DNA from: Microtetraspora niveoalba
GTDB lineage: Bacteria; Actinomycetota; Actinomycetes; Streptosporangiales; Streptosporangiaceae
DNA length: 64,000 nucleotides
NCBI RefSeq assembly: GCF_001570405.1
Contig: NZ_BBYM01000007.1
Location: 1-64,000, forward strand
Direction: 5' to 3'
Under the pieces are notes generated by a model. The model had not been told where the DNA came from. It saw only the letters and a program-made list of their open reading frames with translations, and searched no databases. The translations under genes and the position numbers were made by a program. Below are positions 6,664-21,951 of this stretch, one piece after another (position 1 is the stretch's first letter; the number at the start of each line of letters is the position of its first letter).

Positions 6664-6675
6664 GTAAACGTTTAC
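6664..6675. promoter_or_regulatory. LacI-family operator, site 1
   Basis: GTAAACGTTTAC is a perfect 12-bp palindrome with the central CG typical of LacI-family operators. It lies 50 bp before the start of the lacI-type gene. A bound repressor here would sit at or just after the transcription start. Confidence 0.85.
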
Positions 6676-6690: not shown

Positions 6691-6702
6691 GTAAACGTTT
6701 AC
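6691..6702. promoter_or_regulatory. LacI-family operator, site 2
   Basis: This is a second identical GTAAACGTTTAC palindrome, 27 bp from the first and 23 bp before the regulator's GTG. Paired identical sites suggest cooperative autoregulation of the regulator and the transporter operon behind it. Confidence 0.85.
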
Positions 6703-6724: not shown

Positions 6725-7870
6725 GTGGCCGAAGGCCCCACGATCAACACGATCGCCCGGCACGCCGGGGTGTCGATCGCCTCGGTCTCCCGGGTCCTGA
6801 ACGGTCTGCCGACCCGCGAGGAGACGGTCCGCCGCGTGCTGCGCGCCGCCGAGGAACTCGGGTACGTCCCCAACTCCGTGGCCCGCTCGCTGAAGAGCCG
6901 GCGCACCAATCAGGTCGCGTTCGCGATGGCCGACATCGGCAACCCGGTCTATCTCGCGATGGTGCGCGAGATCCAGCCGGTGCTCCGCGCCGCGGGCTAC
7001 CGCCTCCTGCTGCACTCGACCGACGCCGACGTCGCCGACGAGCTGGACGTGCTGCGCGGGCTCGGCGAGCGGTACGTCGACGGCCTGATCATGAGCCCCC
7101 TCCGGGTCACCGAGGGGCACCTGCGCGCCCTCGCCGCCGCCCGCGCCCCCGTCGTCGTCATCGGCTCGGTGCCCGAGGGCGCCGGCGTCGACAACGTCCG
7201 GGCCGACTCGCGCACCGGCGTCCGGCTCGCCCTCGACCACCTGTACGGCCTCGGCCGCCGCCGCGTCGCGTTCGTCAACGGCCCGGCCGACACCGTCCCC
7301 GGCGCCGCTCGGGCCGCCGCCTACCGTGAGGCGCTCGAGGCCCTCGGTCTGCCGTACGACGAGGATCTCGTCGAGGTCGGTGACTTCTATCGGGAGGACG
7401 GGGCGAGGGCCGTACAGGCGCTCCTGGACCGCGCGGGCGACGTGGACGCGCTCATGTGCGCCAACGACCTGATCGCGCTCGGCGCGCTCGACGTGCTGCG
7501 CCGGGCGGGGCGGCGGGTCCCCGAGGACGTCGCCGTCGTCGGCATGGACGACACCGACCTGGCCGCCGTCGCCTGGCCGTCGCTGACCAGCGTGTCGCTC
7601 GGCTCGGCCCGCCGCGGCCGCGCCGCCGCCGAGCTGCTGCTCGACCGCCTGGAGAACGGCGAGCGCGAGCCGCGGGTCGTCACCGTCGAGCCGCGCCTCG
7701 CCGTACGCGCCTCGACCGTCGGCGTGCGCGAGGCCGAGGAGCGCGACGAGGCCCTGCGGACCGGACGTGCCCCGCGAACCGGAAGAGCCCAGCGAACCGA
7801 GGAAGCCGTACAAGCCGCGGAGGCACCGGCCGGAGAGGTCGCCGGGGACGCGGGGGAGGGGCTCCGATGA
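6725..7870 (+). CDS. LacI-family transcriptional repressor
   Basis: This is a 381-residue regulator. Residues 5-55 form the LacI DNA-binding domain (TINTIARHAGVSIASVSRVL, hinge SVARSLKSRRTNQVAFAM), followed by a periplasmic-binding-protein-like sensor domain (DGLIMSPLRV, ALMCANDLIALGALDVL, VVGMDDTDLAAVAWPSLTSV). The tail after residue 340 is extra and rich in Arg, Glu and Ala. It starts at GTG after GAGGTGA, just downstream of two GTAAACGTTTAC operators, so autorepression is likely. Its stop overlaps the first permease start by 4 bp. The inducer is probably the transported sugar or riboside. Confidence 0.94.
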   Translation: MAEGPTINTIARHAGVSIASVSRVLNGLPTREETVRRVLRAAEELGYVPNSVARSLKSRRTNQVAFAMADIGNPVYLAMVREIQPVLRAAGYRLLLHSTDADVADELDVLRGLGERYVDGLIMSPLRVTEGHLRALAAARAPVVVIGSVPEGAGVDNVRADSRTGVRLALDHLYGLGRRRVAFVNGPADTVPGAARAAAYREALEALGLPYDEDLVEVGDFYREDGARAVQALLDRAGDVDALMCANDLIALGALDVLRRAGRRVPEDVAVVGMDDTDLAAVAWPSLTSVSLGSARRGRAAAELLLDRLENGEREPRVVTVEPRLAVRASTVGVREAEERDEALRTGRAPRTGRAQRTEEAVQAAEAPAGEVAGDAGEGLR

Positions 7871-8772
7871 CGCTCACCGCCCCACGCGCCGCCGGGACCC
7901 GGCGGCGGCCCGCCCAGGGCCGGTCGCGGGCCCGGGAGACGTTCCTGCTGCTGCTCCCCGCCCTCGTGCCCGTGCTGGTGCTCAGCGTCGGCCCGCTCGT
8001 GTACGGCATCCTGCTCGCGTTCACCGACGCGAGGTCGGGGCGGAACACCGAGACGTCGTTCGTCGGCCTGGCCAACTTCGGCGACCTGCTCGCGGACGGC
8101 GACTTCTGGGAGTCGTTCCGGATCGGCATGGTGTGGGCGGTCTCGGTGACCGTGCTGCAGTTCCTCGCGTCGCTCGGGCTCGCATTGCTGCTCAACCAGG
8201 ACCTGCGACTGCGCGGGTTCGCCCGCGTGCTCGCGCTGGTGCCGTGGGCGATGCCGCCCGTCGTCATCGGCCTGATGTGGCGGCTGGTCTACCACCCGGA
8301 CGCGGGCATTCTCAACGCCGTCCTCGGCACCGACGTGGACTGGCTCAACGACTTCTCCGTGGCGCTCCCGGCCGTGATCGTGGTCGGCGTCTGGATGGGC
8401 ATGCCGCAGACGACCGTCGTCCTGCTCGCCGGGCTGCAGAACGTGCCCAAGGAGCTGCACGAGGCCGCGGGAGTGGACGGCGCGGGCGTGTGGCGGCGCT
8501 TCCGGAGCGTCACGCTGCCGCAGCTCCGGCCGGTGATCGTCGCGATCACCTCGCTCGACTTCGTCTGGAACATCAACCAGTTCAGCCTGGTCTACGTCCT
8601 GACGCAGGGCGGGCCGGGCGGCCGGACCCGGCTGCCGATGTTGTTCGCGTACGAGGAGGCGTTCCGTTACGGCTTCTTCGGGTACGCGGCGACCCTCGGC
8701 GTGGCGATCACGATCGTCGTCCTCGCCGTGCTCGGCCTGTACCTGTGGCGCCAGATGAGGGAGGTCGACTGA
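7867..8772 (+). CDS. ABC sugar transporter permease, MalF type
   Basis: The 301-residue protein has about six hydrophobic helices, the first at FLLLLPALVPVLVLSVGPLV. The EAA loop, which contacts the ATPase, reads ELHEAAGVDGAGVWRRFRSV. It forms a heterodimer with the next gene product in a CUT1-type importer. Its ATG overlaps the lacI stop (ATGA). No ATP-binding subunit is encoded in the operon; in actinomycetes such systems usually borrow a shared MsiK-type ATPase. Confidence 0.93.
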   Translation: MTLTAPRAAGTRRRPAQGRSRARETFLLLLPALVPVLVLSVGPLVYGILLAFTDARSGRNTETSFVGLANFGDLLADGDFWESFRIGMVWAVSVTVLQFLASLGLALLLNQDLRLRGFARVLALVPWAMPPVVIGLMWRLVYHPDAGILNAVLGTDVDWLNDFSVALPAVIVVGVWMGMPQTTVVLLAGLQNVPKELHEAAGVDGAGVWRRFRSVTLPQLRPVIVAITSLDFVWNINQFSLVYVLTQGGPGGRTRLPMLFAYEEAFRYGFFGYAATLGVAITIVVLAVLGLYLWRQMREVD

Positions 8773-8788
8773 GATGGGAGGCCGGACG

Positions 8789-9607
8789 GTGCGCACCGCC
8801 CTGAAGTACCTCGCCCTGCTGGGCTACGTCGTCTTCCTGGCGTTCCCGCTCGCGTGGCTGCTGTCGACCGCGCTGAAGACGCCGCAGGAGATGGCGAGCC
8901 TGGACCCGACCTGGATCCCGCGCGACCCGACCCTGGCGAACTTCGCCGACGCCTTCGGCGAGCAGGACCTCGTGGGAAGCGCGACGCGCAGCCTGGCGGT
9001 CGCCCTGGCGAGCGCCGTGATCACCGTGCTCGTGGCCCTTCCTGCGGCGTACGCGCTGGCGCGGTACCGCGGCGCGCTGAACAAGGTCGCGATCGGGTGG
9101 GTGCTGGTCAGCCAGGTCTTCCCGGTCATCCTGATCATCATCCCGCTGTTCATGGTGCTGCGCGGGCTCGACCTGGTGAACACCCTCCCCGGGCTCGCGC
9201 TCGTGCACGTCACCTTCACGCTGCCGTTCGCGCTGTGGATGCTCCAGGGCTACGTGCGGGCCGTGCCCCGCGAGCTGGAGGAGGCGGCGGCCGTGGACGG
9301 GGCGGGACGGCTGCGGGCGCTCGCGGCCGTCGTCGCGCCGCTGCTCGTCCCGGGCGTCGTGGCGACCCTGCTGTTCGCCTTCATCTCGTCCTGGAACGAG
9401 TTCCTGTTCGCGCTCGTGGTCCTCAAGGACCCCGAGGTGGCCACGCTGCCGCTGACGCTGGTCAAGTTCACCGGCCCGGAGGGCGTCGTACGGCTGGGCC
9501 CGCTCGCCGCGGCCTCGCTGCTGGCGACGATCCCGAGCCTGGCGTTCTTCGCGGTCATCCAGCGGCGGCTCAGATCCGGACTGATGGCGGGCGCGGTCAA
9601 GGGGTGA
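8789..9607 (+). CDS. ABC sugar transporter permease, MalG type
   Basis: The second CUT1 permease is about 272 residues with six hydrophobic segments, the first at YLALLGYVVFLAFPLAWLLS. Its EAA loop, ELEEAAAVDGAGRLRALAAV, is located late in the protein as expected. GTG 8789 has GGGAGG 8 bases upstream. ATG 8774 is in frame and would add 5 residues but has no good ribosome site. The gene follows the MalF-type gene directly and precedes the binding protein. Confidence 0.92.
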   Translation: MRTALKYLALLGYVVFLAFPLAWLLSTALKTPQEMASLDPTWIPRDPTLANFADAFGEQDLVGSATRSLAVALASAVITVLVALPAAYALARYRGALNKVAIGWVLVSQVFPVILIIIPLFMVLRGLDLVNTLPGLALVHVTFTLPFALWMLQGYVRAVPRELEEAAAVDGAGRLRALAAVVAPLLVPGVVATLLFAFISSWNEFLFALVVLKDPEVATLPLTLVKFTGPEGVVRLGPLAAASLLATIPSLAFFAVIQRRLRSGLMAGAVKG

Positions 9608-9653
9608 CGCCGCCCCCGGATCCCGTCCCCGAGCTTTTCGATAGGAGAGTCAC

Positions 9654-10958
9654 ATGAGGCGTTGGAGTGCCGCGCTCGCGGTGGCGGCCGTCGTTCTGGC
9701 GGCCGGATGTTCGAACGGGGGAGGCGACGGCGACGGCGCCGCCTCCGACGGCCCGGTCAAGCTGCGGTTCCTCAGCCTGGCCTGGCAGAAGGAGTCGATC
9801 GCCGCCAACAAGCAGCTCGTCGACGAGTGGAACAAGGCCAATCCCAAGATCCAGGTCGAGTACGTCCAGGGGAGCTGGGACAACGTCAACGACCAGCTCG
9901 TCACCTCGTTCGAGGCGGGCGACCCGCCGGACGTGATCCACGACGACTCGCCCGCGCTGTCCGGCTTCGCCTCGCGCGGCTTCCTGCTCGACCTGTCGGG
10001 CTCGCTGCCGTCCGAGCTCAAGAGCGACATCCCGCAGACCGCGTGGGACACCGTCACCTTCGGCGACGGCAAGGGCGGCCAGGGCGTGTACGGCGTGCCT
10101 TTCCTGCAGGAGTCGCAGGTCCTCTACGCCAACAAGAAGCTCCTCGACGCGTCCGGCGTCCGGGTCCCGACGTCCGACGCCCCGTGGACGTGGGACGAGT
10201 TCGCCGAGGCCGCCAAGAAGATGACCAAGGGCGGCGCGTACGGCGTGGCCTGGCCGATGAAGTCGCCGGTCAACAAGGTGCTCAGCCTCGGGCTCAACTT
10301 CGGCGGCACCTTCTTCACGACCGAGGGCGGCAAGACCAGGGTCAAGGTCGGCGCCGAGGAGCGCGAGGTGCTGAGCCGCATCCACGACCAGCTCTACAAG
10401 GACAAGTCGGCCGACCCGTCGGCGCTCGGCATGGGCACCGCCGACCCGCTGCCCGGCTTCTTCGCCGGCAAGTACGCGATGGTGCCCGCGGGCGTCTACC
10501 TGCGCCAGCAGGTGGCCGAGCAGGCGCCCGACGGGTTCGAGTGGGTCACGCTGCCGCCGCTGAAGGGCGTCACCGCGCAGCAGGGCGCGACGTCGCAGAC
10601 CCTGTCCGTGGCGGCCGACAGCAAGCACCCGCAGGAGGCCGTCAAGTTCATCGCGTTCTTCCTGAACGGTCCGAACCAGGCCAAGCTCGCCAAGGGCGAC
10701 TGGCTGCTCCCGACGAGCACCTCGGCGGCGGCCGACCCCGCCATGACCGCCAAGGAGAACTTCTGGGACGTCGCCACCGCGTCGGCCAAGGACCTCGTGG
10801 TCGCGCCGTACCTCAAGGTGGACGGCTACGACGAGTGGAAGAGCAAGGTGGCCACGCCGACGCTCCAGGAGTACTTCGCCGACAAGATCAGCCTTGACGA
10901 GGCGGCGAAGCGGCTCGTCGAGGAGGGCGACAAGGTGCTGGAGCGGTACGGACGGTGA
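9654..10958 (+). CDS. ABC transporter solute-binding lipoprotein
   Basis: The 434-residue protein starts MRRWSAALAVAAVVLAAGCS, a lipoprotein signal peptide with lipobox LAAGC, so it is anchored outside the membrane. The mature part is a family 1 extracellular solute-binding protein (SLAWQKESIAANKQLVDEWN, VEYVQGSWDNVNDQLVTSFE, GVPFLQESQVLYANKKLL, PLPGFFAGKYAMVPAGVYLR). GGAGAG precedes the ATG. Ligand specificity is not readable. The DraG-family genes and ribokinase that follow suggest a ribosylated compound. Confidence 0.93.
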   Translation: MRRWSAALAVAAVVLAAGCSNGGGDGDGAASDGPVKLRFLSLAWQKESIAANKQLVDEWNKANPKIQVEYVQGSWDNVNDQLVTSFEAGDPPDVIHDDSPALSGFASRGFLLDLSGSLPSELKSDIPQTAWDTVTFGDGKGGQGVYGVPFLQESQVLYANKKLLDASGVRVPTSDAPWTWDEFAEAAKKMTKGGAYGVAWPMKSPVNKVLSLGLNFGGTFFTTEGGKTRVKVGAEEREVLSRIHDQLYKDKSADPSALGMGTADPLPGFFAGKYAMVPAGVYLRQQVAEQAPDGFEWVTLPPLKGVTAQQGATSQTLSVAADSKHPQEAVKFIAFFLNGPNQAKLAKGDWLLPTSTSAAADPAMTAKENFWDVATASAKDLVVAPYLKVDGYDEWKSKVATPTLQEYFADKISLDEAAKRLVEEGDKVLERYGR

Positions 10959-11995
10959 CCGTGCCCCCCACGCCTTCCCTCGTGCCCGTCCGCCCGCCGC
11001 GCGACCGCGCCCGGGGCTGCCTGCTCGGCCTCGCGGCCGGCGACGCCCTCGGCGCGCCCGCGGAGAACATGACGCCCGAGGCCATCGCCGCGCGGTGGGG
11101 CGTGCTCGAGGAGATCGAGGGCGGCGGGACGGACGACACCGAGTACAGCCTGTTCGCCGCGTCCCTCCTCCTCCGGCACGGCCACGCGCTGACGTCGCGG
11201 GACGTCGCCGAGGCGTGGCACGCCGAGATCGTGGACCGGATCGACGGGCCGATGCGCGGCGCCGGGTTCTCCGAGCTCGGCACCGTGCGGGCGCTGCGCC
11301 GCGGGCTCGGGCCGCCGCTGAGCGGCCGGTGGCACCCGCACGGCTGGTCCGACGGCCTCGCCATGCGGGCGGCGCCGTACGGGATCTTCGCGGCGGGCGA
11401 CCCCGGCGAGGCGGCGCGGCTGGCCGAGATCGACGGGCGGGTCAGCCACGACGGCGAGGGCGTCCTGGGCGGCCGGGCGGTCGCGGCGGCGGTGGCGGTC
11501 GCGATGACCGGCGCCGGACCGGACGAGGTGGTCGAGGCGGGCCTGCGGGCGATCCCCGCGGACTCCTGGACCGCGCGCGCCGCCGGGAAGGCGGTCGAGA
11601 TCGCCCGTGACGGGAGGGAGCGGACCTCGCGGGAGGAGTTCGCCCGCGCCCTCCACGACTCCGTCGTGCTGAAGCACTACCCGTGGACGGATCTGGCCCC
11701 GGAGGCGGTCGCACTCGCCTTCTCCGCCTATATCAGGGGCGGCGGAGAGGTCGAGGCGGCCGTGGTCACCGCGGCCAACCTGGGCCGGGACGCCGACACG
11801 ACGGCCGCGATCGCGGGCGCGCTGGCCGGCGCGGGCGCCGGAGAGGCGGGCGTGCCCACACGCTGGGCCCGCCGGATCGCGCCGGTCACCGGCCGCTGCC
11901 TGCCCGCGATGGCGGGCCGGCACGTCCTGGACGCCGCCGACCGGCTCGCCGGCGCTCTGACGGACCGCCAGGCGGACGGCCCCGCCGGCGGATGA
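10955..11995 (+). CDS. ADP-ribosylglycohydrolase family protein 1
   Basis: This 346-residue DraG/ARH-fold hydrolase would cleave a ribosyl glycosidic bond using two Mg2+ ions. The metal motifs are complete: GLAAGDALGAPAE near residue 25, GGTDDTEYS near 52, and NLGRDADTTAAIAGALAGA near the C-terminus. Its GTG start overlaps the stop of the binding-protein gene (GTGA), which ties it to the importer. It is the first of four consecutive family members. Cleavage of imported ribosides, rather than protein de-ADP-ribosylation, is inferred from the neighbours. Confidence 0.93.
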   Translation: MTVPPTPSLVPVRPPRDRARGCLLGLAAGDALGAPAENMTPEAIAARWGVLEEIEGGGTDDTEYSLFAASLLLRHGHALTSRDVAEAWHAEIVDRIDGPMRGAGFSELGTVRALRRGLGPPLSGRWHPHGWSDGLAMRAAPYGIFAAGDPGEAARLAEIDGRVSHDGEGVLGGRAVAAAVAVAMTGAGPDEVVEAGLRAIPADSWTARAAGKAVEIARDGRERTSREEFARALHDSVVLKHYPWTDLAPEAVALAFSAYIRGGGEVEAAVVTAANLGRDADTTAAIAGALAGAGAGEAGVPTRWARRIAPVTGRCLPAMAGRHVLDAADRLAGALTDRQADGPAGG

Positions 11996-12018
11996 CCCCT
12001 GGAAGGGATGGAGAGAGC

Positions 12019-13311
12019 ATGTCATCGGGGGGCGGAGGCGGCATGCCGCCGCCGGAGGAGGACCGCGTTCTCGGCGCGTTCGCCGGCCTCGCCGTGGGCG
12101 ACGCCGCGGGCTGGCCGGCGGCGCGTCACCGGTCGCTGCGGCTCGCGCCGTGGAGCAGGCGGCTGCACCGGGAGCTGGACGCGTTCGCCGAAGAGCGCCA
12201 GGTGACCACGTTGCCGGTGCCGTTCGCGCTGAACCAGCCGGTCGAGCCGCTGGCGCTCGGGCCGTCCGACGACGCGGAATGGCTCGCCTGGACGGCGACG
12301 ACGATCCACGAGGACCGCGCGGAGGCGTTCGGGCGGCTGGCCCGGCGTGACGACCTGCGCGCCCGGATCTCGGTCTGGTCCGCGCTCGACAACCTCGCCG
12401 CCGGCCTGGGGCCGCCCGCGAGCGGCCACGACAACCCGCACTTCTTCGACGACGCGGCGGCGGTGCGTGCGGTGGCGTTCGGCGCGGCGGGGATGGACCC
12501 GGTCGCCGACGCCGAGGTCACGAACTCCGGGGACGGCGTCCTCGGGGCGGTGGCGATCGCGACGGCGGTCGGCGCGCTGGTGAGGGGCGCGCCGATGCGG
12601 GAGGCGGTGGACGCGGCCGTCGCCGTGCTCCCGGAGGACACCGCGATCGGGCACGCCGCACGTACGGCCGTCGCGGTGGCGCGTAAGCACGGCGACCCGT
12701 TCGCCGCCGTCCCCGCGCTCGACGCGGCGCTGCTCGACCACGTCTACAGCTACGGCGTCGCCGCCGCCGAGACCGTCCCGATCGCGCTCGCCCTCGCCGA
12801 CGCGGCGATGCCGGGCGAAGGCGCGTCCGGCTCCGCACGGTCCTTCACACGGTCCTCCACACGGTCCTCCACGGGGGGACGCGGGGCGGGGGAGGCGTTC
12901 GGCGCCGCCGTGTCCGCGGCGGCCTGCCTGGCGTCGGTCGCGGACTCGGCGCCGGCGCTCACCGGGGCGCTGGCCGGGGCGTACGCGGGGTACGCGGCGC
13001 TGCCGGAGGCGTGGCGGGAGTCGGCGCGCACGCTGGCCGGCTGCTGCCTGCCCGAACTGGCCGGCACCGACCTGGTCGCCGTCGCCCGGACCCTGGCGTC
13101 CGGAGGTCCGGCCCGAAGCGCCCCGGAGCAGGAGGGCGCGGCACAGGAGGGCGCGGCACTGGACGGCGCGCGACAGCACGGCGTGGCAAAGGACGGCCAG
13201 ACAGGCAGCGGTACGACACAGAGCGGTTCGACAGACAGCGGTTCGACAGACAGCGGTTCGACAGACAGCGGTTCGACAGACAGCGGTTCGACACGGAGGG
13301 GGACGGCATGA
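12019..13311 (+). CDS. ADP-ribosylglycohydrolase family protein 2, divergent
   Basis: This 430-residue member has GAFAGLAVGDAAGWPAARH at the N-terminus, PSDDAEWLAWTATTI as its first metal motif and TNSGDGVLGAVAIATAV in the middle. The C-terminal metal motif is altered. Where paralogue 1 has GRDADT, this one has SVADS, losing the first Asp and changing Thr to Ser before the conserved ALTGALAGA. Activity may be weak or different. The last 60 or so residues are not part of the domain and end in SGSTD repeats. ATG 12019 follows GGAGAGAG. A Ser/Thr/Arg insertion (SARSFTRSSTRSSTGG) sits near residue 275. Confidence 0.88.
   Translation: MSSGGGGGMPPPEEDRVLGAFAGLAVGDAAGWPAARHRSLRLAPWSRRLHRELDAFAEERQVTTLPVPFALNQPVEPLALGPSDDAEWLAWTATTIHEDRAEAFGRLARRDDLRARISVWSALDNLAAGLGPPASGHDNPHFFDDAAAVRAVAFGAAGMDPVADAEVTNSGDGVLGAVAIATAVGALVRGAPMREAVDAAVAVLPEDTAIGHAARTAVAVARKHGDPFAAVPALDAALLDHVYSYGVAAAETVPIALALADAAMPGEGASGSARSFTRSSTRSSTGGRGAGEAFGAAVSAAACLASVADSAPALTGALAGAYAGYAALPEAWRESARTLAGCCLPELAGTDLVAVARTLASGGPARSAPEQEGAAQEGAALDGARQHGVAKDGQTGSGTTQSGSTDSGSTDSGSTDSGSTDSGSTRRGTA
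13207..13296 (+). repeat. 15-bp tandem repeat in the 3' end of the second DraG-family gene
   Basis: The unit AGCGGTTCGACAGAC is repeated five times from 13222 to 13296, preceded by a degenerate copy (AGCGGTACGACACAG). It encodes repeats of Ser-Gly-Ser-Thr-Asp. The unit is a multiple of three, so changes in copy number keep the frame, and the next gene's start overlaps the stop just after it. Confidence 0.9.
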
Positions 13312-14456
13312 CGCCGCTTGAGGACAGGGCCGTCGGCTGCGTGGCCGGTGCGGCGGTCGGCGACGCGCTCGGCGGCGCGACCGAGGGGTGGACGCCGGAG
13401 CAGATCCGGGCGCGCTACGGGGGCCCGGTCGAGGGTGTGGTCCCGCCGTACCACGCGGACTGGCGCAACGCCCGGCCGATCGCGCCGTACCACAAGGGCG
13501 ACGGCCACGTGACCGACGACACGCTGATGACCCACGCGCTGATCCGCGTGTACGAGCGGGTGGGCGGGCACCTGGACGCCTACTCCGCCGCCGAGCACCT
13601 GGTGCCCGAGATGATGGGCCAGAAGCGCTGGATCCCCGAGCTGGAGGCCGAGGCGCTGCCGCTGCACCGGGTGTTCCTGGCCGAGAAGTGGCTGGTCCTG
13701 CGGCTGCACTACGGCCACGCCGACCCGCGCGAGGCGGGCGTCGGCAACATCGTGAACTGCGGCGCGGCCATGTACATGGCCCCGGTGGGCGTCGTCAACG
13801 CGGGCGACCCGGACGGCGCGTACGCCGAGGCGGTCGACCTGGCGGGGGCGCACCAGTCCAGCTACGGCCGTGAGGCGGCCGGGGTGCTCGCCGCCGCCGT
13901 CGCCGAGGCGATGCGGCCAGGGGCCACGCCGGACTCGGTGGTCGCGGCCTGCCTGCGGCTCGCCCGCGACGGCACGCGGGCGGCCATCGAGGCGGTGTGC
14001 TCGGCCGCGCGCGGCATCGGCCACTGGGAGGGCTCGTTCGAGACGCTGCGCGCCGCCATGCGCCCGTACGACACGGTGGCCGACACCTATCGGGACCAGG
14101 GGCTGGGCGCGCGCCGCCCGAGCCGGGTGCACAGCATCGAGGAACTGCCGCTCGCCCTCGCGTTCCTGCTGATCGCCAAGGGCGACTTCCGCGAGACCGT
14201 GCTGGGCGGGGTGAACTACGGCCGGGACGCGGACTCGATCGCCTCCATGGGCGGCGCGATCGCCGGGGCGCTGGGCGGGCGGTCCGCCGTACCGGCCGGG
14301 TGGATCGAGGAGGTGGCGGCGGCGAGCAGGACCGACCTCGTCGCGCCCGGCCTCGCCCTCGCCGCCGTGGCGCGCCGGGTGCGCGCCGCGGACGCGGAGC
14401 GCCGCCGCGCGGCCGACGCCGCGTTCGCCGAGCTGCTGGCCGGGGGCGGGGCGTGA
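13308..14456 (+). CDS. ADP-ribosylglycohydrolase family protein 3
   Basis: This 382-residue member has complete metal motifs: GAAVGDALGGATEGW, GHVTDDTLMTHALIRVY and NYGRDADSIASMGGAIAGAL. A longer loop between the first two (WRNARPIAPYHKGD) and the segment GNIVNCGAAMYMAPVGVVNA mark a different subfamily from paralogue 1. ATG 13308 overlaps the preceding stop by 4 bp. It probably cleaves a ribosyl or related N-glycosidic bond; the substrate is unknown. Confidence 0.92.
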   Translation: MTPLEDRAVGCVAGAAVGDALGGATEGWTPEQIRARYGGPVEGVVPPYHADWRNARPIAPYHKGDGHVTDDTLMTHALIRVYERVGGHLDAYSAAEHLVPEMMGQKRWIPELEAEALPLHRVFLAEKWLVLRLHYGHADPREAGVGNIVNCGAAMYMAPVGVVNAGDPDGAYAEAVDLAGAHQSSYGREAAGVLAAAVAEAMRPGATPDSVVAACLRLARDGTRAAIEAVCSAARGIGHWEGSFETLRAAMRPYDTVADTYRDQGLGARRPSRVHSIEELPLALAFLLIAKGDFRETVLGGVNYGRDADSIASMGGAIAGALGGRSAVPAGWIEEVAAASRTDLVAPGLALAAVARRVRAADAERRRAADAAFAELLAGGGA

Positions 14457-15844
14457 CGCGGCTCACCTGGGTGCAGCCGGAGGACCTGGTGGGCCACGAG
14501 CTGCGCCAGGCCGCCGAGGACGGCAGGGGCGACCTGCCGGAGGTGCGGGAGATCGCGGCCCGCTGGCGGGCGGCCGGGGGGCATCCCGCGCCGCCCCGGG
14601 CCGGCGCCTCGCCGCAGGCCGCTCCCGTACGGCTGCGCCGCCTGGCGGAGGACCTGCTCGACGAGCTGGCCGCGATCCCCTCGCCGCTGCCCGAGCCGTC
14701 CGCCTGGGAGGAGATCGTCGCCGCCTGTCCGGACTGGCCCGGCGGAAGAAGCGCGGGCGGGGCAGGCAGCGTGGATCCGGCGCGGGTGCTCGGCGCCTGG
14801 CGGGGCCGGGCGGCAGGATGCGTGCTCGGCAAGCCGGTGGAGAAGATCCCCCGCGAGGGCATCCGGGAGATCGCCGAGGCGACCGGCAACTGGCCGATCC
14901 GCGGCTGGTTCACCGCCGAGGGCCTGCCGCCGGAGGTCGCGCTCAGGTGGCCGTGGAACCGGCGCAGCGCCGTCAACAGCCTCGCGGAGAACATCGACGG
15001 CGTTCCCGAGGACGACGACCTCAACTTCCCGCTGCTCGCGCTCGCCCTGCTGGAGCGGTACGGCAGGGGCTTCACCACGGCGGACGTCGCGCAGATGTGG
15101 CTCGACGAGCTGCCCGGCGGCCGGGTGTTCACCGCCGAGCGGGTCGCGTACCGGAACCTGCTGACGGGCATCGAACCGGAGCCGGTGGAGCCCGCGCCCG
15201 GCGCGGAGCGGGAGCCGGGGCGGACGACGGCCGCCTACCGCAACCCGTTCCGGGAATGGATCGGCGCGCTCATCCGGGCCGACGTGTACGGCTGGGTCAA
15301 TCCGGGAGATCCGGCGACGGCGGCCGAGTTCGCCTGGCGCGACGCCCGGCTCAGCCACACGGCGAACGGCCTCTACGGCGCGATGTTCACCGCCGCGATG
15401 TGCGCGCGGTCCCTGGACGGCTCCTCCGTGACGGAGGTGGTCGAGGCGGGCCTGTCCGTGGTGCCCGCCGGGTCCAGGCTGGCCGGCGCCGTACGGGACG
15501 CCGTGGAGGCGGCCGGCGCCGAGCCGGACTTCGAGCGGGTCGTGGACCACCTGTACGCCCGGCACGGCGGCCTGCACTGGGTCCACACGATCAACAACGC
15601 GGCCCTGATCGCGGCGGCGCTGGTCCACGGGAAGGGGGACTTCACCGCCTCGATCGCGGCCGCGGTCGCGGCCGGCTGGGACACCGACTCGGCGGGCGCG
15701 ACGGTCGGCTCGATCGTCGGCGGGCTGAACGGAGGCGTGCCCGGGCAGTGGTCCATGAAAGACCGCCTGACCAGCAGCGTCACCGGATTCGACGGCATCG
15801 CCCTGGGGGAGCTCGCCCGGCGCACCCGGTTGATGGCAGGGTAA
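14453..15844 (+). CDS. ADP-ribosylglycohydrolase family protein 4, long form
   Basis: This 463-residue member starts at GTG 14453, overlapping the stop of paralogue 3. About 105 N-terminal residues (TRLTWVQPEDLVGHELRQAA...) precede the catalytic fold. The family motif then appears as WRGRAAGCVLGKPVEKIPRE, followed by PEDDDLNFPLLALALLERYG in the DDT position, and AGWDTDSAGATVGSIVGGLN as the C-terminal metal motif. YGWVNPGDPATAAEFAWRDA resembles the middle of other long members. It belongs to a distinct branch of the family; the substrate is unknown. Confidence 0.9.
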   Translation: MTRLTWVQPEDLVGHELRQAAEDGRGDLPEVREIAARWRAAGGHPAPPRAGASPQAAPVRLRRLAEDLLDELAAIPSPLPEPSAWEEIVAACPDWPGGRSAGGAGSVDPARVLGAWRGRAAGCVLGKPVEKIPREGIREIAEATGNWPIRGWFTAEGLPPEVALRWPWNRRSAVNSLAENIDGVPEDDDLNFPLLALALLERYGRGFTTADVAQMWLDELPGGRVFTAERVAYRNLLTGIEPEPVEPAPGAEREPGRTTAAYRNPFREWIGALIRADVYGWVNPGDPATAAEFAWRDARLSHTANGLYGAMFTAAMCARSLDGSSVTEVVEAGLSVVPAGSRLAGAVRDAVEAAGAEPDFERVVDHLYARHGGLHWVHTINNAALIAAALVHGKGDFTASIAAAVAAGWDTDSAGATVGSIVGGLNGGVPGQWSMKDRLTSSVTGFDGIALGELARRTRLMAG

Positions 15845-15878
15845 GCGGGATAAAGGTGACGATCCTGGAGGAAGCATC

Positions 15879-16766
15879 GTGATCTCGGTGTTCGGCAGCG
15901 CCAACATGGACCTGGTGGCCTACGTACCGTCCGCTCCCAAGCTGGGCGAGACCGTCACGGGGCGGGCGTTCCGCACGATCCCCGGCGGCAAGGGCGCGAA
16001 CCAGGCGGTCGCCGCCGCGCGGGCGGGTGCCCAGGTGGCGTTCATCGGCGCCGTCGGCGACGACGCCTTCGGCCCGGAGCTGCGCGGGGCGTTGTTCGAG
16101 GCGGGCATCGACACCAGCAGGCTGCGGGTCGTGCCCGGACCGTCCGGGATCGCCCACATCGTGGTGGAGGACAGCGGCGGCAACTCGATCGTCGTCGTGC
16201 CCGGCGCCAACGGCTCCGTCACCGGCTGCTCCGCCGAGGACGTCGCGATGATCGCCCGTTCGCGGGCGTTGCTGCTGCAGCTCGAACTGCCCCTTGAGGG
16301 GGTCGTCGAGGCCGCCCGCGCCGCGCGCGCGGCCGGGGTGCCGGTGGTCCTGACCCCCGCGCCCGTCGTGGAACTGCCCGGCGAGCTGCTCGACGCCGTG
16401 GACCTGATCGTGCCGAACGAGCACGAGGCCGCCGCCATCACCGGCGCGGCCGACCCGGACGACGCGCTCAAGGTCCTGCTCGACCGCGTCCCCGAGGCCG
16501 TGATCACCCTGGGCTCCCGCGGCGCGCTGTACGGCTCGCGCGCCGGGGTCCGGCTGCTGGTGCCGGCCGTGCGGGTCGAGGCGGTGGACACGACGGCGGC
16601 CGGCGACACGTTCGTCGGCGCGCTCGCCGTCGCCAGGTCCGAGGGCCGCGACCCCGCGGACGCGCTGCGCTTCGCCTCGACGGCGGCGGCGCTGTCCGTC
16701 CAGCGGGAGGGCGCGAGCACGTCGATGCCGAGCCGCGCCGAGATCGACGCGGCGCTTCTGTCGTGA
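15879..16766 (+). CDS. rbsK: ribokinase-like PfkB carbohydrate kinase
   Basis: This 295-residue PfkB-family kinase has the ribokinase opening (FGSANMDLVAYV), the sugar-binding GGKGANQAVAAARAGA, the PNEHEAAAITG segment and the catalytic anion hole VDTTAAGDTFVGALA with the base Asp. It would transfer phosphate from ATP to ribose (O5), giving ribose-5-phosphate. GTG 15879 is preceded by GGAGGAAG. It follows four DraG-family hydrolase genes, which fits phosphorylation of ribose released by them. Another furanose or nucleoside as substrate is possible. The symbol is by family only. Confidence 0.88.
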   Translation: MISVFGSANMDLVAYVPSAPKLGETVTGRAFRTIPGGKGANQAVAAARAGAQVAFIGAVGDDAFGPELRGALFEAGIDTSRLRVVPGPSGIAHIVVEDSGGNSIVVVPGANGSVTGCSAEDVAMIARSRALLLQLELPLEGVVEAARAARAAGVPVVLTPAPVVELPGELLDAVDLIVPNEHEAAAITGAADPDDALKVLLDRVPEAVITLGSRGALYGSRAGVRLLVPAVRVEAVDTTAAGDTFVGALAVARSEGRDPADALRFASTAAALSVQREGASTSMPSRAEIDAALLS

Positions 16767-16864
16767 CCGCGGGCCGCGCGAGGCGGGGCCTGCCGCCCCG
16801 TCCGTGCGGCCCCGACGCGATCGCCGGGGGCGGCCCCGGTGCGCGAAACCCATGGGAGGAACGA

Positions 16865-18040
16865 ATGACCGCCCCCGCCACGCCGCCCCTGTCGGGCGTA
16901 CGCGTGCTGGACCTGGCGACGCTGTTCGCCGGGCCGATGGCCGCGATGCTGCTCGGCGACTACGGCGCGGACGTGATCAAGGTGGAGCATCCGGCGAAGC
17001 CGGACCCCTCGCGCGGCCACGGGCCGGAGGGGTTGTGGTGGAAGATGCTCGGCCGGAACAAGCGTGTGATCACGCTCGACCTGTCCACGCCGGACGGCCA
17101 GGACCTGTTGGTCGAGCTGGCGCGGGACGCCGACGTGGTGATCGAGAACTTCCGTCCGGGCACGCTTGAGCGGTGGAATCTCGGATACGAGCGGCTGAGC
17201 GCGGCCAATCCCGGGCTGGTGCTCGCCCGGGTGACCGGCTTCGGGCAGTTCGGCCCGTACGCCAGAAGGCCCGGCTTCGGCACGCTGGCCGAGGCCATGA
17301 GCGGGTTCGCGGCGATGACGGGGGAGCCGGACGGCCCGCCGACGCTGCCGCCGTTCGGGCTGGCCGACGGCATCTGCGCGCTCGCGACCGCGTTCGCGGT
17401 CATGACCGCGCTCAAATCGGGCCGGGGGCAGGTGGTCGACCTGTCGATCATCGAGCCGATCCTGGGCGTCCTCGGGGCGCAGCCCACCGTCTTCGACCGG
17501 CTCGGCGTCGTGCCCCCGCGCACCGGCAACCGGTCGGTCAACAACGCGCCGCGCAACACGTACCGGTGCGCGGACGGCTCGTGGCTGGCCGTCTCCACCT
17601 CGGCCCAGAACATCGCCGAGCGCGTGATGCGGCTGGTCGGCCGTCCCGAGTTCATCGCCGAGCCGTGGTTCGCGACCGGCGCGGGCCGGGTCCGGCACGC
17701 CGACGAGCTGGACGGGGCCGTGGCCGCCTGGGTGGCCCGGCACACCCGCGACGAGGTGCTCGCCGCCTTCGAGGAGGCGCAGGCCGCCGTCGCGCCCGTC
17801 TACGACGTGCGGGACGTCATGGCCGACCCCCAGATCGCGGCGCTCGACGCGATCACCACGGTCGAGGACCCCGAGCTGGGGCCGCTGCGGATGCAGAACG
17901 TCATGTTCCGGCTGTCGGAGACGCCGGGGACGATCCGCTGGACCGGCCGCCCGCACGGCGCCGACACCGACGAGGTGCTGGCCGCGCTCGGCCTGCCGCC
18001 CGGCCGGATCGCCGAGCTGCGCGAGAAGGGGATCGTGTGA
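16865..18040 (+). CDS. CaiB/BaiF class III CoA-transferase
   Basis: The 391-residue protein starts PPLSGVRVLDLATLFAGPMA and continues GDYGADVIKVEHP, the hallmark of family III CoA-transferases. The catalytic Asp, which forms the acyl anhydride, should lie in the segment FGTLAEAMSGFA to FGLADGICAL. It would move CoA between carboxylic acids. GGGAGG precedes the ATG. It lies 98 bp after ribokinase on the same strand and overlaps or nearly touches the CitE-type gene after it, suggesting activation of an organic acid to its CoA ester and then cleavage by the lyase. The acid is unknown. Confidence 0.92.
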   Translation: MTAPATPPLSGVRVLDLATLFAGPMAAMLLGDYGADVIKVEHPAKPDPSRGHGPEGLWWKMLGRNKRVITLDLSTPDGQDLLVELARDADVVIENFRPGTLERWNLGYERLSAANPGLVLARVTGFGQFGPYARRPGFGTLAEAMSGFAAMTGEPDGPPTLPPFGLADGICALATAFAVMTALKSGRGQVVDLSIIEPILGVLGAQPTVFDRLGVVPPRTGNRSVNNAPRNTYRCADGSWLAVSTSAQNIAERVMRLVGRPEFIAEPWFATGAGRVRHADELDGAVAAWVARHTRDEVLAAFEEAQAAVAPVYDVRDVMADPQIAALDAITTVEDPELGPLRMQNVMFRLSETPGTIRWTGRPHGADTDEVLAALGLPPGRIAELREKGIV

Positions 18041-18120
18041 CGGATCACAGCCCCTCCGCGGTTGACCCGGTGTGTCAGGGGGATCATCAGGCGGCAGAAA
18101 AAGCCGTGAGGAGTGACCCC

Positions 18121-19020
18121 GTGCCCCCGACCATGCCCCCGACCGCGCCCCCAGCCGCGTCCGTGACCGCGCCGCTGACCTGGTTGTACGTGCCCGCCGA
18201 CCGGCCGGACCGGGTCGCCAAGGCGCTCGCCGCGGACGCCGACGTCGTCATCGTCGACCTGGAGGACGCGGTCGCGCCCGAGAACAAGGGCCGGGCCAGG
18301 GCCGAGGCCGTCGCCCTGCTCGCCACGCCGCAGCCCCGGGTGCAGATCCGGGTGAACGACGTGCGCACGCCGTACGGGCAGGCGGACCTGCACGCGCTGG
18401 CCGCCCTCGTCACGGGGACGTGCGGCGTCCGGCTGCCCAAGGTGGAGTCGGCGGCGGAGGTGCGGGAGATCGCGGCGGCGCTGCCCGGCGTGCCCCTGCA
18501 CCCGCTGATCGAGTCCGCCCTCGGGCTGGAACGCGCCTTCGAGATCGCCACCGCCTGCGACGCGGTGGCGAGCGTCGGGCTCGGCGAGGCCGACCTGCGC
18601 GCCGACCTCGGCGTCAGCTCCGATGGCGGGCTCGCCTGGGCGCGCTCGAGGATCGTGGTCGCCGCCCGTGCCGCCGGGCTGCCCGCGCCCTCGCAGTCGG
18701 TCTATCCGGACGTCCGGGACCTCGCCGGGCTGGCGGCGTCCTGCCTGGAGGGGCGCGCGACCGGGTTCCGCGGCCGGACGGCGGTCCACCCGGCCCAGCT
18801 CCCGGTCATCGTGGAGGCGTACCGGCCCAGCGAGGCGGAGATCGCCGCCGCCCAGGAGGTGCTCGCGGCGGCGGGCCAGGGGGCGGTGGCCCTGCCGGAC
18901 GGCCGGTTCGTGGACGAGGCCGTGGTGCGGCAGGCCCGCCGCGTCCTGGAGAGCGCCCGCCCCGCCGCGTACCCGGGGCCGGCCGCGTATCAGGGCGGGG
19001 CCGGGGCGAGCAGGCCGTAG
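18121..19020 (+). CDS. CitE/HpcH-type CoA-ester lyase
   Basis: This TIM-barrel protein of about 299 residues is related to citrate lyase beta (CitE) and malyl/citramalyl-CoA lyases. Motifs are TWLYVPADRPDRVAKALAAD, VIVDLEDAVAPENKGRAR, RLPKVESAAEV (the metal-site Glu), HPLIESALGLERA and GRTAVHPAQLPVIVEAY. It would cleave or form a beta-hydroxyacyl-CoA. GTG 18121 has GAGGAG 9 bases upstream. GTG 18037 is in frame and overlaps the CoA-transferase stop by 4 bp, so an N-terminus longer by 28 residues is possible. The C-terminus is Ala/Gly/Pro-rich. A two-step acid degradation with the CoA-transferase is inferred. Confidence 0.88.
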   Translation: MPPTMPPTAPPAASVTAPLTWLYVPADRPDRVAKALAADADVVIVDLEDAVAPENKGRARAEAVALLATPQPRVQIRVNDVRTPYGQADLHALAALVTGTCGVRLPKVESAAEVREIAAALPGVPLHPLIESALGLERAFEIATACDAVASVGLGEADLRADLGVSSDGGLAWARSRIVVAARAAGLPAPSQSVYPDVRDLAGLAASCLEGRATGFRGRTAVHPAQLPVIVEAYRPSEAEIAAAQEVLAAAGQGAVALPDGRFVDEAVVRQARRVLESARPAAYPGPAAYQGGAGASRP

Positions 19021-19119: not shown

Positions 19120-20214
19120 GTGGACGCCGTCGACCCCGCCGCCGATCCAGCCCCCGACCGCACCGCCGACCGTGCTCTCGGTCATGCCGCCGACCGGACG
19201 TTCGATCGTGCCGCCGACCGGGCCTTCGATCGTGCTCCCGATCGTGCCGGGGGCCGGACGCCCTTCGGTCCCCGCGTCAGGGTGGCGAGCGCGCCGGTCA
19301 GCTTCGGTGTCTACGACGCGGAGAGCGCGTCGATCGCCCCTGACGACATGCTCGCCACGATGCGCGCCGCCGGATACGCGGGGACGGACTCCGGGCCCGT
19401 CGGCTACCTCGGCACCGGCGCCGAACTGGCGGACCGGCTCGCCCGGCACGGCCTCGCCCTCGCGGGCGGCTGGGTGGACCTCCGGTACGGCGACGCCCGC
19501 GGCTTCGCGGAGGACCTGGCCGGACTGGAGGCCGCGCTGGACGTGTTCGCCGGGGTCCCGGTGGACGACCCGCGGTTCGCGCCCCGGCCGACGCTCGCCT
19601 GCCCGGCCGACCCGGCGAGGTTCGCCCGGCCGGGCGCGCCGGTCGATCGGGCGCTCCAGCTCGCCCCGGACGTGTGGCCGGGGTTCGCCGCCCGGGTGCG
19701 GGAGGCCGCCGCCCGGTGCCGCGACCGCGGCCTCGAACCCGTCTTCCACCACCATCTCGGCACCGACGTGGAGACGGAGGAGGAGGTCGAGCGGCTGCTC
19801 GACCTCGCCGACGTCTCCCTGTGCCTGGACACCGGGCACCTGTGGCTCGCGGGCGGCGACCCGGTCGCCGCGATCGCCCGCTGGTCCGGCCGGATCCGGC
19901 AGGTGCACGTCAAGGACGCCTCCCGCGACACGCTCGCCCGCGTACGGGCGGCGGGCGGCGACCTGTGGGACGCCGTCCGCGGCGGCGTCTTCCCGCCGCT
20001 CGGCGGGGGCGACCTCGACCTGGACGCCGTGGTCGGCGCGCTCGCGCGGACCGGCTACGAGGGGTGGGTGGTCGTGGAGCAGGACGTCCCGGCGACCGGC
20101 CCGGACCTGGGAAGAGTGGCCGCCGACCAGGTGGCCAACCGGGAACGGCTGGCCCGGGCGGGTCTGGTCGGCGGCCCGCCTACCGCTCCGTCGGCGCCGC
20201 GAGGGCGCGGGTGA
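19120..20214 (+). CDS. sugar phosphate isomerase/epimerase (EryC/IolE-like TIM barrel)
   Basis: This 364-residue protein of the xylose-isomerase superfamily has SAPVSFGVYDAESASIAPDD, PVFHHHLGTDVETEEEVERL, SLCLDTGHLWLAGGDPVAAI, RQVHVKDASRDTLA and YEGWVVVEQDVPATG. These supply the usual His, Asp, His and Glu metal ligands. The first 45 residues are Asp/Arg/Ala repeats (about DR-x-x-DRA) and look added. GTG 19120 follows GAGAGG. EryC of Brucella, a tetrulose-phosphate racemase, and IolE belong to this fold. With the kinase and TPI-like genes next door I favour an EryC-type role, but the inosose dehydratase type cannot be excluded. Its 3' end overlaps the convergent fusion gene by 35 bp. Confidence 0.82.
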   Translation: MDAVDPAADPAPDRTADRALGHAADRTFDRAADRAFDRAPDRAGGRTPFGPRVRVASAPVSFGVYDAESASIAPDDMLATMRAAGYAGTDSGPVGYLGTGAELADRLARHGLALAGGWVDLRYGDARGFAEDLAGLEAALDVFAGVPVDDPRFAPRPTLACPADPARFARPGAPVDRALQLAPDVWPGFAARVREAAARCRDRGLEPVFHHHLGTDVETEEEVERLLDLADVSLCLDTGHLWLAGGDPVAAIARWSGRIRQVHVKDASRDTLARVRAAGGDLWDAVRGGVFPPLGGGDLDLDAVVGALARTGYEGWVVVEQDVPATGPDLGRVAADQVANRERLARAGLVGGPPTAPSAPRGRG

Positions 20215-21928
20215 CGGAGGCGAGCTCGTGCCAGCGGGCGGACAGGACGTCCGCCGCGCCGGGGATCAGGGCGGAGCCGGCGTCGAGCAGGTCCGCCCAC
20301 AGCGACCGGCCGACGACGAAGCCGCTCGCGCCGGACGCGCACGCGACGGCCACCTGGCGGACGACCGCCCCGAAGTCCTGTCCTCCGGACAGGATCGTCC
20401 ACGGGAGCGATCCGGCCGCGGCGTCCAGGTCGTCGCAGGCCGCGCGCGCGGCGGCGTGCCCGGCGACGGCGTCCACCCCGGCGGGGAAGGCGAGCTTGAG
20501 GAAGTCGGGCGCGCGACGCGCCACCTCCGCCACGACGTCGAGTTGACGGCGGCGCAACGACTCGGCCGACTCCTCCCGGTCGCGCGGCGTCACCAGGACC
20601 TCGGCCATGACGGCGAGGCCCACCGCGTGGAAGTCCGCGATCACCCGTTCGAGCAGCGCGAACCGGTCGGCCGACCCGGCGTCGTCCAGGTCCTCCACCC
20701 ACATGAGCTTGATCGCGTCCGCTCCGGCCGCCGCCACGGTGGCCGCGTCCCTCCCGTCCGCCACGAGTTCGGCGGCCGGTACGGGCGCGGTGGGCGCGGT
20801 CTGCCGCTCCAGCCCGACGATCAGGCCGGACGGTGTGACGAGGTCACGGGACAGGCAGGCGGGCGCGCCGTGCTCGACGTCGACGAGTACGGACGACGGG
20901 AGGCCGCGCAAGGCGGCGACGATGTCGGCCTTGGGACCGGCCAGGGCGGCCGCGTCCGGGACCGGCGTCACCGGCCAGGCGTCGGGGCCGTGGTCGACGG
21001 CGAGCGACAACATCCGGCCGGACGGGTCCAGGACCCGCTGCACCGCGAGCCGGCGTCGCCCCGCGCCCGGCGCGGGGACGCGGGGGGCGGCCGGGGTGCG
21101 GCGCGGGCCGGCGGACGGCGTGCCGTACGGCGCGTCCGTGCTCCAGCGGCGCTCCGCCCGTGTGCCGAGAGCGCGGGCGGCGGCCGCGCAGAGGCCGAGG
21201 AACCCGTCCGGGTCCCAGGCGGCCCGGCCGACGAACAGGCCGTCCACCTCGGCGCTGCGCGACAGCTCGTCCACGTTGCCCGGGTTGACGCTGCCGCCGT
21301 ACAGGATGACCGGGTCGGCCTGGCCGAGATCCTTCAGCACCGCGCGCACCGCCGCGTGGACCGGCTCGACCTCGGGCAGCGTCGCCGCCCGGGAGCCCTC
21401 GCCGATCGCCCACACCGGCTCGTACGCCACCAGGACCCGGTCCCGCTCGTCCGGCCGTACGCGGGCGAAGGCGGCGCGGACCTGGCCGGTCACGTGCTCG
21501 AGCGCCCGGCCCTCGTCGCGGACCACCTGGGTCTCGCCCACGCACAGCAGCACCCGGAGGCCGCGCGCGAGCGCCGCGCCCACCTTGGCCGCGACCACGT
21601 CGTCGGTCTCGTGGTGGTCGCGGCGCCGCTCGGCGTGGCCGATCTCGACCAGGGCGGCGCCCGTCTCGGCGATCATCGCGGCGCTGACGTCCCCCGTGTG
21701 GGCGCCGTCGGGCCAGGGGGAGGTGTCCTGCGCGCCGACGAGGACCGGCGACCCGCGCAGCGCCCCGGCGACCCGGTTCAGGTGCGTGTACGGCGGAACC
21801 ACGAAGAGCCGCAGCGGCCCGTGGTGGGCCGGCCACCCCGCGGCGAGGGCCGCGGCGAACCGCTCGGCCTCCTCCGCGGACTTGGTCATCTTCCAGCTCG
21901 TGCCGATCCAGAACTCTCTGCCGGACAT
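20180..21928 (-). CDS. fusion of TPI-like isomerase (EryH type) and class I aldolase
   Basis: This 582-residue protein has two enzymes in one chain. Residues 1-250 are a triosephosphate-isomerase fold: GTSWKMTK at the substrate Lys, EIGHAERRRDH (catalytic His), VAYEPVWAIGEGSR (catalytic Glu) and LYGGSVNPGNVDELS. The GTSWKM variant in place of GNWKMN suits the TPI-like tetrulose-phosphate isomerases (EryH) better than glycolytic TPI. After an Ala/Pro/Arg linker of about 40 residues comes a LacD/YihT-type aldolase: MLSLAVDHGPDAWPV, DAIKLMWVEDLDD, and DFLKLAFPAGVDA with the likely Schiff-base Lys. The frame is continuous, with GGGAG before the ATG. It would isomerise a tetrulose phosphate; the aldolase substrate is unknown. 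Confidence 0.88.
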   Translation of the reverse strand: MSGREFWIGTSWKMTKSAEEAERFAAALAAGWPAHHGPLRLFVVPPYTHLNRVAGALRGSPVLVGAQDTSPWPDGAHTGDVSAAMIAETGAALVEIGHAERRRDHHETDDVVAAKVGAALARGLRVLLCVGETQVVRDEGRALEHVTGQVRAAFARVRPDERDRVLVAYEPVWAIGEGSRAATLPEVEPVHAAVRAVLKDLGQADPVILYGGSVNPGNVDELSRSAEVDGLFVGRAAWDPDGFLGLCAAAARALGTRAERRWSTDAPYGTPSAGPRRTPAAPRVPAPGAGRRRLAVQRVLDPSGRMLSLAVDHGPDAWPVTPVPDAAALAGPKADIVAALRGLPSSVLVDVEHGAPACLSRDLVTPSGLIVGLERQTAPTAPVPAAELVADGRDAATVAAAGADAIKLMWVEDLDDAGSADRFALLERVIADFHAVGLAVMAEVLVTPRDREESAESLRRRQLDVVAEVARRAPDFLKLAFPAGVDAVAGHAAARAACDDLDAAAGSLPWTILSGGQDFGAVVRQVAVACASGASGFVVGRSLWADLLDAGSALIPGAADVLSARWHELASVTRALAAPTER

Positions 21929-21951
21929 GACTGTCTCCCTCGTCCCCACGT

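Follow-up and report, generated by a model that had tools for sequence, protein, structure and literature searches.

Members of the ADP-ribosylhydrolase (ARH) family (PF03747), which are routinely annotated as protein de-ADP-ribosylating, include DraG, ARH1 and ARH3. The two-metal motif of the family reads E ... [T/S]DDT ... DxD[T/S] (PMC6309922). ARH1 and ARH3 act selectively on alpha-1'' linkages (PMC7050489), and ARH3 acts on O-acetyl-ADP-ribose and has been crystallised with alpha-NAD (PMC7050489, PMC8319183). The number of ARH genes in Streptomyces coelicolor is part of the reason why a "lively ADP-ribosylation metabolism" has been ascribed to this species (PMC5087735), and SCO2028 to SCO2031 are among eight uncharacterised DraG/ARH homologues listed for this organism (PMC9411070). 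In this study, we analysed a stretch of 64,000 nucleotides from Microtetraspora niveoalba (positions 1 to 64,000 of contig NZ_BBYM01000007.1, hereafter the window), where four consecutive genes of this family, named H1 to H4, lie in an operon with a sugar importer and a ribokinase (RK).

Classical ribose and nucleoside catabolism (rbsDACBK, or a nucleoside hydrolase with a ribokinase) resembles this operon in combining import, ribosyl hydrolysis, a ribokinase and a LacI-type regulator. Different from it, the hydrolases of the window have the ARH fold instead of that of IU nucleoside hydrolases (domain annotation of the operon genes revealed no IU_nuc_hydro hydrolase), and the importer is of the CUT1 type instead of RbsABC or PnrA; the logic of the operon is that of riboside/nucleoside catabolism with a different hydrolase fold. 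A transporter, an ARH-family protein and a PfkB kinase are also associated in yegTUV of Escherichia coli (PMC10819704), where, however, the transporter belongs to the nucleoside:H+ symporter family and not to CUT1, and the kinase YegV lacks several ribose residues of the ribokinase RbsK. In the staphylococcal cassette chromosome (SCC), an ARH gene adjoins a ribokinase and a permease (PMC3637587, PMC3321955), but the permease is of the NCS1 type, the ARH is single, and the cassette has been published as gene content only.

The operon of M. niveoalba, a soil actinobacterium whose genome measures 8.47 Mb, consists of eleven co-directional genes from 6725 to 19020, ending with a CitE-like lyase. 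On the basis of sequence, genomic context and predicted structure, we consider it likely to be a riboside-utilisation system. Riboside catabolism is favoured over protein de-ADP-ribosylation because the gene order is conserved, the pattern recurs across phyla, the kinase is a true ribokinase and the putative operator is unique to the operon. According to the mechanism that we propose, the LacI-family protein would repress the operon from two putative operators until an inducer, which is probably ribose or the glycoside taken up, lifts the repression; the CUT1 importer, drawing on an ATPase whose gene lies outside the operon, would bring a glycoside of ribose into the cell; H1, H3 and H4, as proteins of the two-metal ARH fold, would hydrolyse ribosyl bonds, with H2 as a probable non-catalytic partner of H1; RK would convert ribose to ribose 5-phosphate; and CaiB and CitE, where kept, would probably serve to activate, and then to cleave, the carboxylic acid that remains of the aglycone. 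The features of the locus are as follows.

6664..6675, no strand: putative operator 1, exact palindrome GTAAACGTTTAC
6691..6702, no strand: putative operator 2, palindrome GTAAACGTTTAC, 27 bp from operator 1
6725..7870, plus strand: LacI-family regulator (PF00356 and PF13377)
7867..8772, plus strand: CUT1 permease A (PF00528)
8774..9607, plus strand: CUT1 permease B (PF00528)
9654..10958, plus strand: CUT1 solute-binding lipoprotein (PF01547), closest solved relatives sugar-binding proteins
10955..11995, plus strand: H1, ARH-fold hydrolase (PF03747, 194.5 bits), full two-metal motif E...TDDT...DADT
12019..13311 (alternative start 11992), plus strand: H2, ARH-fold protein with a degenerate active site (PF03747, 80.6 bits)
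13308..14456, plus strand: H3, ARH-fold hydrolase with the full motif (PF03747, 170.5 bits)
14453..15844, plus strand: H4, ARH-fold hydrolase, variant motif E...EDDD...DTDS (PF03747, 158.7 bits)
15879..16766, plus strand: ribokinase RK (TIGR02152, above cut-off)
16865..18040, plus strand: CaiB family III coenzyme A (CoA) transferase, optional module (PF02515)
18037..19020, plus strand: CitE-like CoA-ester lyase, optional module (PF03328)

An earlier, sequence-only reading of this DNA had described four consecutive DraG-family genes, three of them starting with a 4-bp overlap, flanked by a CUT1 importer and a ribokinase and in the company of a LacI regulator, and each of these points agrees with our annotation. 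All four proteins exceed the curated Pfam cut-off of PF03747 (ADP_ribosyl_GH, 26.2 bits) and account for four of the six places in the genome that match this model, and their lengths (346, 430, 382 and 463 residues for H1, H2, H3 and H4) are those of the open reading frame list. H1 (start GTG 10955), H3 (ATG 13308) and H4 (GTG 14453) each overlap the end of the gene before them by 4 bp; the start of H2 at 12019 leaves a gap of 23 bases after H1, and the in-frame upstream ATG 11992 would give the same 4-bp overlap and a protein of 439 residues. The spacing between H4 and RK is 34 bases. The importer comprises an SBP_bac_1 binding protein and two BPD_transp_1 permeases, and Pfam annotation of the operon genes revealed no ATPase gene for it; the neighbouring kinase was assigned by TIGR02152. 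The closest models of the LacI-family regulator are RbsR and CcpA, both scoring far below cut-off, and the closest solved relatives of the CitE-like protein are acyl-CoA lyase and citrate-lyase-beta-like proteins. No Rfam RNA, riboswitches included, was found in the operon, and a sigma-70 promoter scan, uninformative here, gave no match.

With the ribokinase model TIGR02152, whose cut-off is 299.65 bits, RK scores 313.7 to 314.1 bits and is the only protein of the genome above this threshold, the runner-up reaching 116.9 bits; the copy in Allokutzneria scores 299.7 bits. Furthermore, RK keeps all of the residues checked that we take to be the ribose-contact and catalytic positions of E. coli RbsK (N14, D16, G42, K43, N46, E143 and D255), and the same seven are kept in five kinases that accompany ARHs in other clusters, several of the ribose residues being lost in YegV. 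These results bear on the hypothesis that the operon encodes glycosidases for an oligosaccharide or for a furanoside of a sugar other than ribose, the PfkB kinase accepting another sugar. CUT1 importers usually carry oligosaccharides, and the ARHs of Rhizobiales and Deinococcus extend at the C-terminus into a long region that no Pfam model matches; however, the kinase is a ribokinase by both family score and ribose-contact residues, and the ARH enzymes reviewed in PMC7050489 act on ribosyl bonds, so that we regard this hypothesis as very improbable.

The sequence GTAAACGTTTAC occurs twice in the whole genome, in both cases upstream of the LacI gene at 6725. Most of the related loci that we checked contain one or two copies at the equivalent site upstream of LacI, and the most distant ones contain variants, such as GTAAACGTTTCC. 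In eight Streptomyces loci checked upstream of H1 the operator GTAAACGTTTAC is absent, as expected, because the LacI gene is absent there.

The sequence-only reading had proposed a search for this gene order in other genomes. Scanning the GTDB genomes with an H2 profile, we obtained 80 named loci (here and below, L numbers designate individual loci), 66 of which have full flanks, the closest named relatives being those of Microtetraspora fusca and M. malaysiensis. The order H1-H2-H3-H4 is kept in 64 of the 66, which excludes a chance arrangement. The conserved order is LacI-permease-permease-solute-binding protein (SBP)-H1-H2-H3-H4-ribokinase, with CaiB and CitE present or absent; the LacI-permease-permease-SBP front is found in 34 of the full-flank loci, and all eleven genes in 10, among them Streptomyces daqingensis (L146). 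Allokutzneria (L139, with a shorter flank) also has all eleven genes, and since the full set thus occurs in Streptosporangiales, in Allokutzneria and in one Streptomyces, the operon spans three orders. The importer adjoins H1-H4 in every non-Streptomyces full-flank locus except one. Most Streptomyces have H1-H4 with CaiB and CitE and usually RK, located between gltB and lgt and lacking LacI and the importer. That CaiB and CitE might be a universal part of the system is ruled out by their absence from the Nonomuraea loci compared. In Streptomyces sp. CB01580 (L143) the arrangement is H1-H2-RK-CaiB-CitE without H3 and H4, a possible natural deletion.

Clusters with more diverged ARHs, related to H3 and H4 and associated with LacI and CUT1 genes, were retrieved from plasmid records in other phyla. 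In Agrobacterium the order is LacI-perm-perm-SBP-ARH-ARH-UgpC-ribokinase (perm, permease), in Mycolicibacterium LacI-ARH-SBP-perm-perm-ribokinase-UgpC, and in Deinococcus LacI-perm-perm-SBP-hypothetical-ARH-ribokinase-ARH; Ensifer and Sinorhizobium present ARH clusters with a CoA transferase and a CoA-ester lyase, and similar ARH-importer clusters occur in Phyllobacterium, Nitratireductor and Pseudochrobactrum, the last with one ARH. In several of these clusters the ARHs are accompanied either by a ribokinase or by a CoA transferase and a CoA-ester lyase. Across the clusters compared, what recurs beside the ARH genes is an importer together with a ribokinase rather than an ADP-ribosyltransferase. 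The single-ARH clusters of Mycolicibacterium and Pseudochrobactrum suggest that one ARH can suffice. An ARH gene lies directly beside a ribokinase gene in L214, a locus from a distant actinobacterium, a ribokinase-like PfkB gene is found near two ARHs in Subdoligranulum, and in the archaeon Halostella an H4-like ARH is located near a PnrA/Bmp-type nucleoside importer, a nucleoside hydrolase (IU_nuc_hydro) and a PfkB kinase. The catabolic context that the sequence-only reading had proposed from the neighbouring genes is borne out by the LacI regulator, the CUT1 importer and the true ribokinase, and by the independent clusters of other phyla that repeat this pattern.

Some of these loci presented further features. 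The diverged cluster of L056 comprises RK, H2, H1, LacI, H4, SBP and permeases. After its H1-H2-H4 part come PEP_hydrolase-like, UPF0261 and xylose-isomerase-like genes (region L056:2519-6480), whose products may act on the aglycone or the sugar in that lineage. The ARHs of Rhizobiales and Deinococcus are about 700 residues long (L215:13132-15231 and L221:12091-14193), the portion without a Pfam match being the C-terminal 370 to 400 residues or so. In the 517-kb plasmid record of Enterobacter hormaechei (L222, CP103578.1), the core chromosomal genes fur, fldA, seqA, glnS and nag surround a LacI-ARH-SBP cluster, so that either chromosomal DNA has been transferred or the assembly is at fault. 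NZ_LT559118.1 (Nonomuraea gerenzanensis) is part of the plasmid collection and, judging from its 11.85 Mb, is a chromosome.

A maximum-likelihood tree of 30 ARH domains placed H1, H2, H3 and H4 in four clades, each with its own relatives elsewhere; simple tandem duplication of one gene is thereby ruled out, as the sequence-only reading had maintained in assigning the four genes to different subfamilies. H3, the most conserved of the four, groups with Rhizobiales proteins (42 to 44% identity) with support 100/99, and E. coli YegU joins the same clade (97/90) on a long branch, so that its placement is unsure. H4, which has an N-terminal extension of about 110 residues, groups with proteins of Mycolicibacterium, Deinococcus and other actinobacteria. 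The all-helical ARH fold was recognised from sequence in H1 and H3 and from AlphaFold models in H2 and H4: the model of H4, for which no sequence relative was found in the PDB, matches DraG (best E 6.1e-7) and ARH3, and that of H2 matches ARH3 and DraG (best E 3.7e-6), with target-normalised template modelling (TM) scores of 0.5 to 0.7 in both cases. The DraG equivalog TIGR02662 (cut-off 337) is not reached by H1 (77.4 bits) or H3 (48.2 bits), and H1 to H4 score far below the cut-off of the Tri1 model NF041672. H1 to H4 resemble DraG, ARH1 and ARH3 in fold and, for H1 and H3 and in a variant form for H4, in the two-metal residues; they differ from them in the importer and ribokinase context, in the degenerate H2 and in these low scores. 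Some Streptomyces encode a second H4-like ARH, 43 to 44% identical (L209:9444-10526, L210:9647-10717 and L211:9415-10545), whose neighbours, as read from their translations, are glycerate kinase-like and, variably, NUDIX and Sir2-like genes; this sister lineage of H4 could act on O-acetyl-ADP-ribose.

The motif of H1 is invariant wherever its positions align (76 loci), and so is that of H3 (78 loci); H4 has a variant, in which the glutamate is kept, TDDT is replaced by EDDD, and DTDS is kept in 75 of 76 loci. H3 and H4 retain the Gly/His that contact the pyrophosphate in ARH1 and ARH3, H1 varies at these positions and H2 has lost them, and these pocket residues do not seem to discriminate ADP-ribosyl from smaller ribosyl substrates. 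It is in this light that one may ask whether H1 to H4 are true protein or nucleic-acid de-ADP-ribosylases involved in signalling or defence, with the sugar genes as functionally meaningless neighbours. The membership of all four in PF03747, the residues just described and the fact that the S. coelicolor homologues are counted as putative ADP-ribosyl hydrolases (PMC5087735, PMC9411070) speak for it. Conversely, there is no ADP-ribosyltransferase among the annotated operon genes, PADLOC gave no defence match for H1 to H4 or RK, and the importer, the regulator and the ribokinase are conserved with the ARHs across orders, in a pattern that recurs in other phyla; we consequently hold this explanation to be unlikely.

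The sequence-only reading had also supposed that each of the four proteins cleaves a different ribosyl linkage, which H2 does not support. In all 80 loci its Glu-flap glutamate is replaced (by A, G, S, T or V), as is the first Asp of DxD (by V, L, A or T), so that at most three of the four ARH proteins look catalytically competent. A decaying pseudogene is ruled out by the purifying selection on H2 (ratio of nonsynonymous to synonymous substitution rates, dN/dS, 0.27 to 0.32) and by its invariant SDDA ... DS pattern. H2 has lost both residues and is nevertheless under purifying selection, and it is preceded by H1 in all of the 76 loci that allow the test. It is therefore probably a partner of H1, either non-catalytic or altered; H1 and H2 look more like a pair than like two independent enzymes and may form a complex. 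It should be considered that the equivalent glutamate matters little in DraG (PMC7050489), and therefore its loss in H2 is, taken alone, no proof of inactivity. The C-terminal tail of H2 is repetitive, being encoded by two 15-bp tandem arrays (13129-13197 and 13200-13293 of the window, 4.6 and 6.3 copies), and is not common to the related proteins aligned.

By analogy with the selectivity of ARH1 and ARH3, the riboside bond is probably alpha, and the CaiB-CitE pair suggests an aglycone with a carboxylic acid. The several ARHs may serve either one compound or a family of related compounds.

A number of observations weigh against a riboside-utilisation system, or against parts of it. The pyrophosphate-contact residues of H3 and H4 are compatible with an ADP-ribosyl substrate, and we found in the literature no measured activity for any member of the H1-H4 clades. 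RK is missing in 9 of the 66 full-flank loci and CaiB/CitE in 23 (CaiB is present in 43); besides being optional, the CaiB and CitE of Ensifer are not clear orthologues of those in the window, so that the cross-phylum link of this pair may be convergent or loose. In Halostella, the ARH gene lies on the strand opposite to the nucleoside genes. Finally, the absence of the importer beside H1-H4 in the majority of Streptomyces would also fit the salvage of intracellular ADP-ribose-type metabolites, such as O-acetyl-ADP-ribose or alpha-NAD breakdown products, which is in keeping with the known ligands of ARH3 (PMC7050489, PMC8319183) and with the H4-like gene found near NUDIX and Sir2-like genes. 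However, that gene belongs to the sister lineage of H4 outside the operon, the operon itself has no NUDIX or phosphatase gene to split ADP-ribose, the LacI regulator is joined by two putative operators that are unique to it, and the importer adjoins the ARH genes in all but one of the non-Streptomyces full-flank loci. We therefore judge salvage to be an improbable function and maintain riboside utilisation as the preferred interpretation.

The S. coelicolor genes deserve specific comparison. In S. violaceoruber (L149), H1-H4, CaiB and CitE lie between gltB and lgt, an arrangement that fits SCO2028-SCO2033 by position, provided that the SCO numbers of the flanking genes are as we assume. By position, SCO2028-SCO2031 are orthologues of H1-H4 and are likewise followed by CaiB and CitE; different from the window, no LacI, importer or ribokinase gene adjoins them. 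Purified SCO2028 and SCO2030 showed no activity on uracil-alpha-ADP-ribose (PMC13036486), which is compatible with a non-ADP-ribose substrate and is no proof of it. Our searches of open-access full texts yielded no report of a function for the H1-H4 clades, of an importer-ARH-ribokinase system or of a catabolic role for ARHs. The sequence-only reading had called the system possibly undescribed; this stands as regards a catabolic role, and has to be qualified in that the S. coelicolor homologues were already listed (PMC9411070) and two of them purified (PMC13036486). A survey argued for a preference of viral ARH domains for macromolecular conjugates of ADP-ribose (PMC9503650), and the operons reported here contrast with them.

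Next to the operon, the region 19120-23457 of the window contains a gene for a xylose-isomerase-like TIM barrel, followed on the minus strand by a frame resembling, from translation alone, a triosephosphate isomerase and an aldolase, and by an FGGY kinase. The region seems to encode a pathway of its own for a polyol or a sugar.

It is possible to hypothesize, more tentatively and with somewhat less than even confidence, that a catabolic branch of the ARH family, present in at least four bacterial phyla and with an archaeal relative, cleaves unrecognised environmental ribofuranosides, probably alpha and in some cases with an acid aglycone handled by CaiB/CitE, and that the actinobacteria employ for this purpose three active enzymes and the pseudoenzyme H2 bound to H1. 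If the catabolic interpretation is true, half of the eight S. coelicolor proteins listed as DraG/ARH homologues would serve sugar catabolism, and the substrate range of the family would exceed signalling. It would also point to a new ribose-containing nutrient and provide a testable explanation for the orphan cassettes of E. coli (yegTUV) and of staphylococci.

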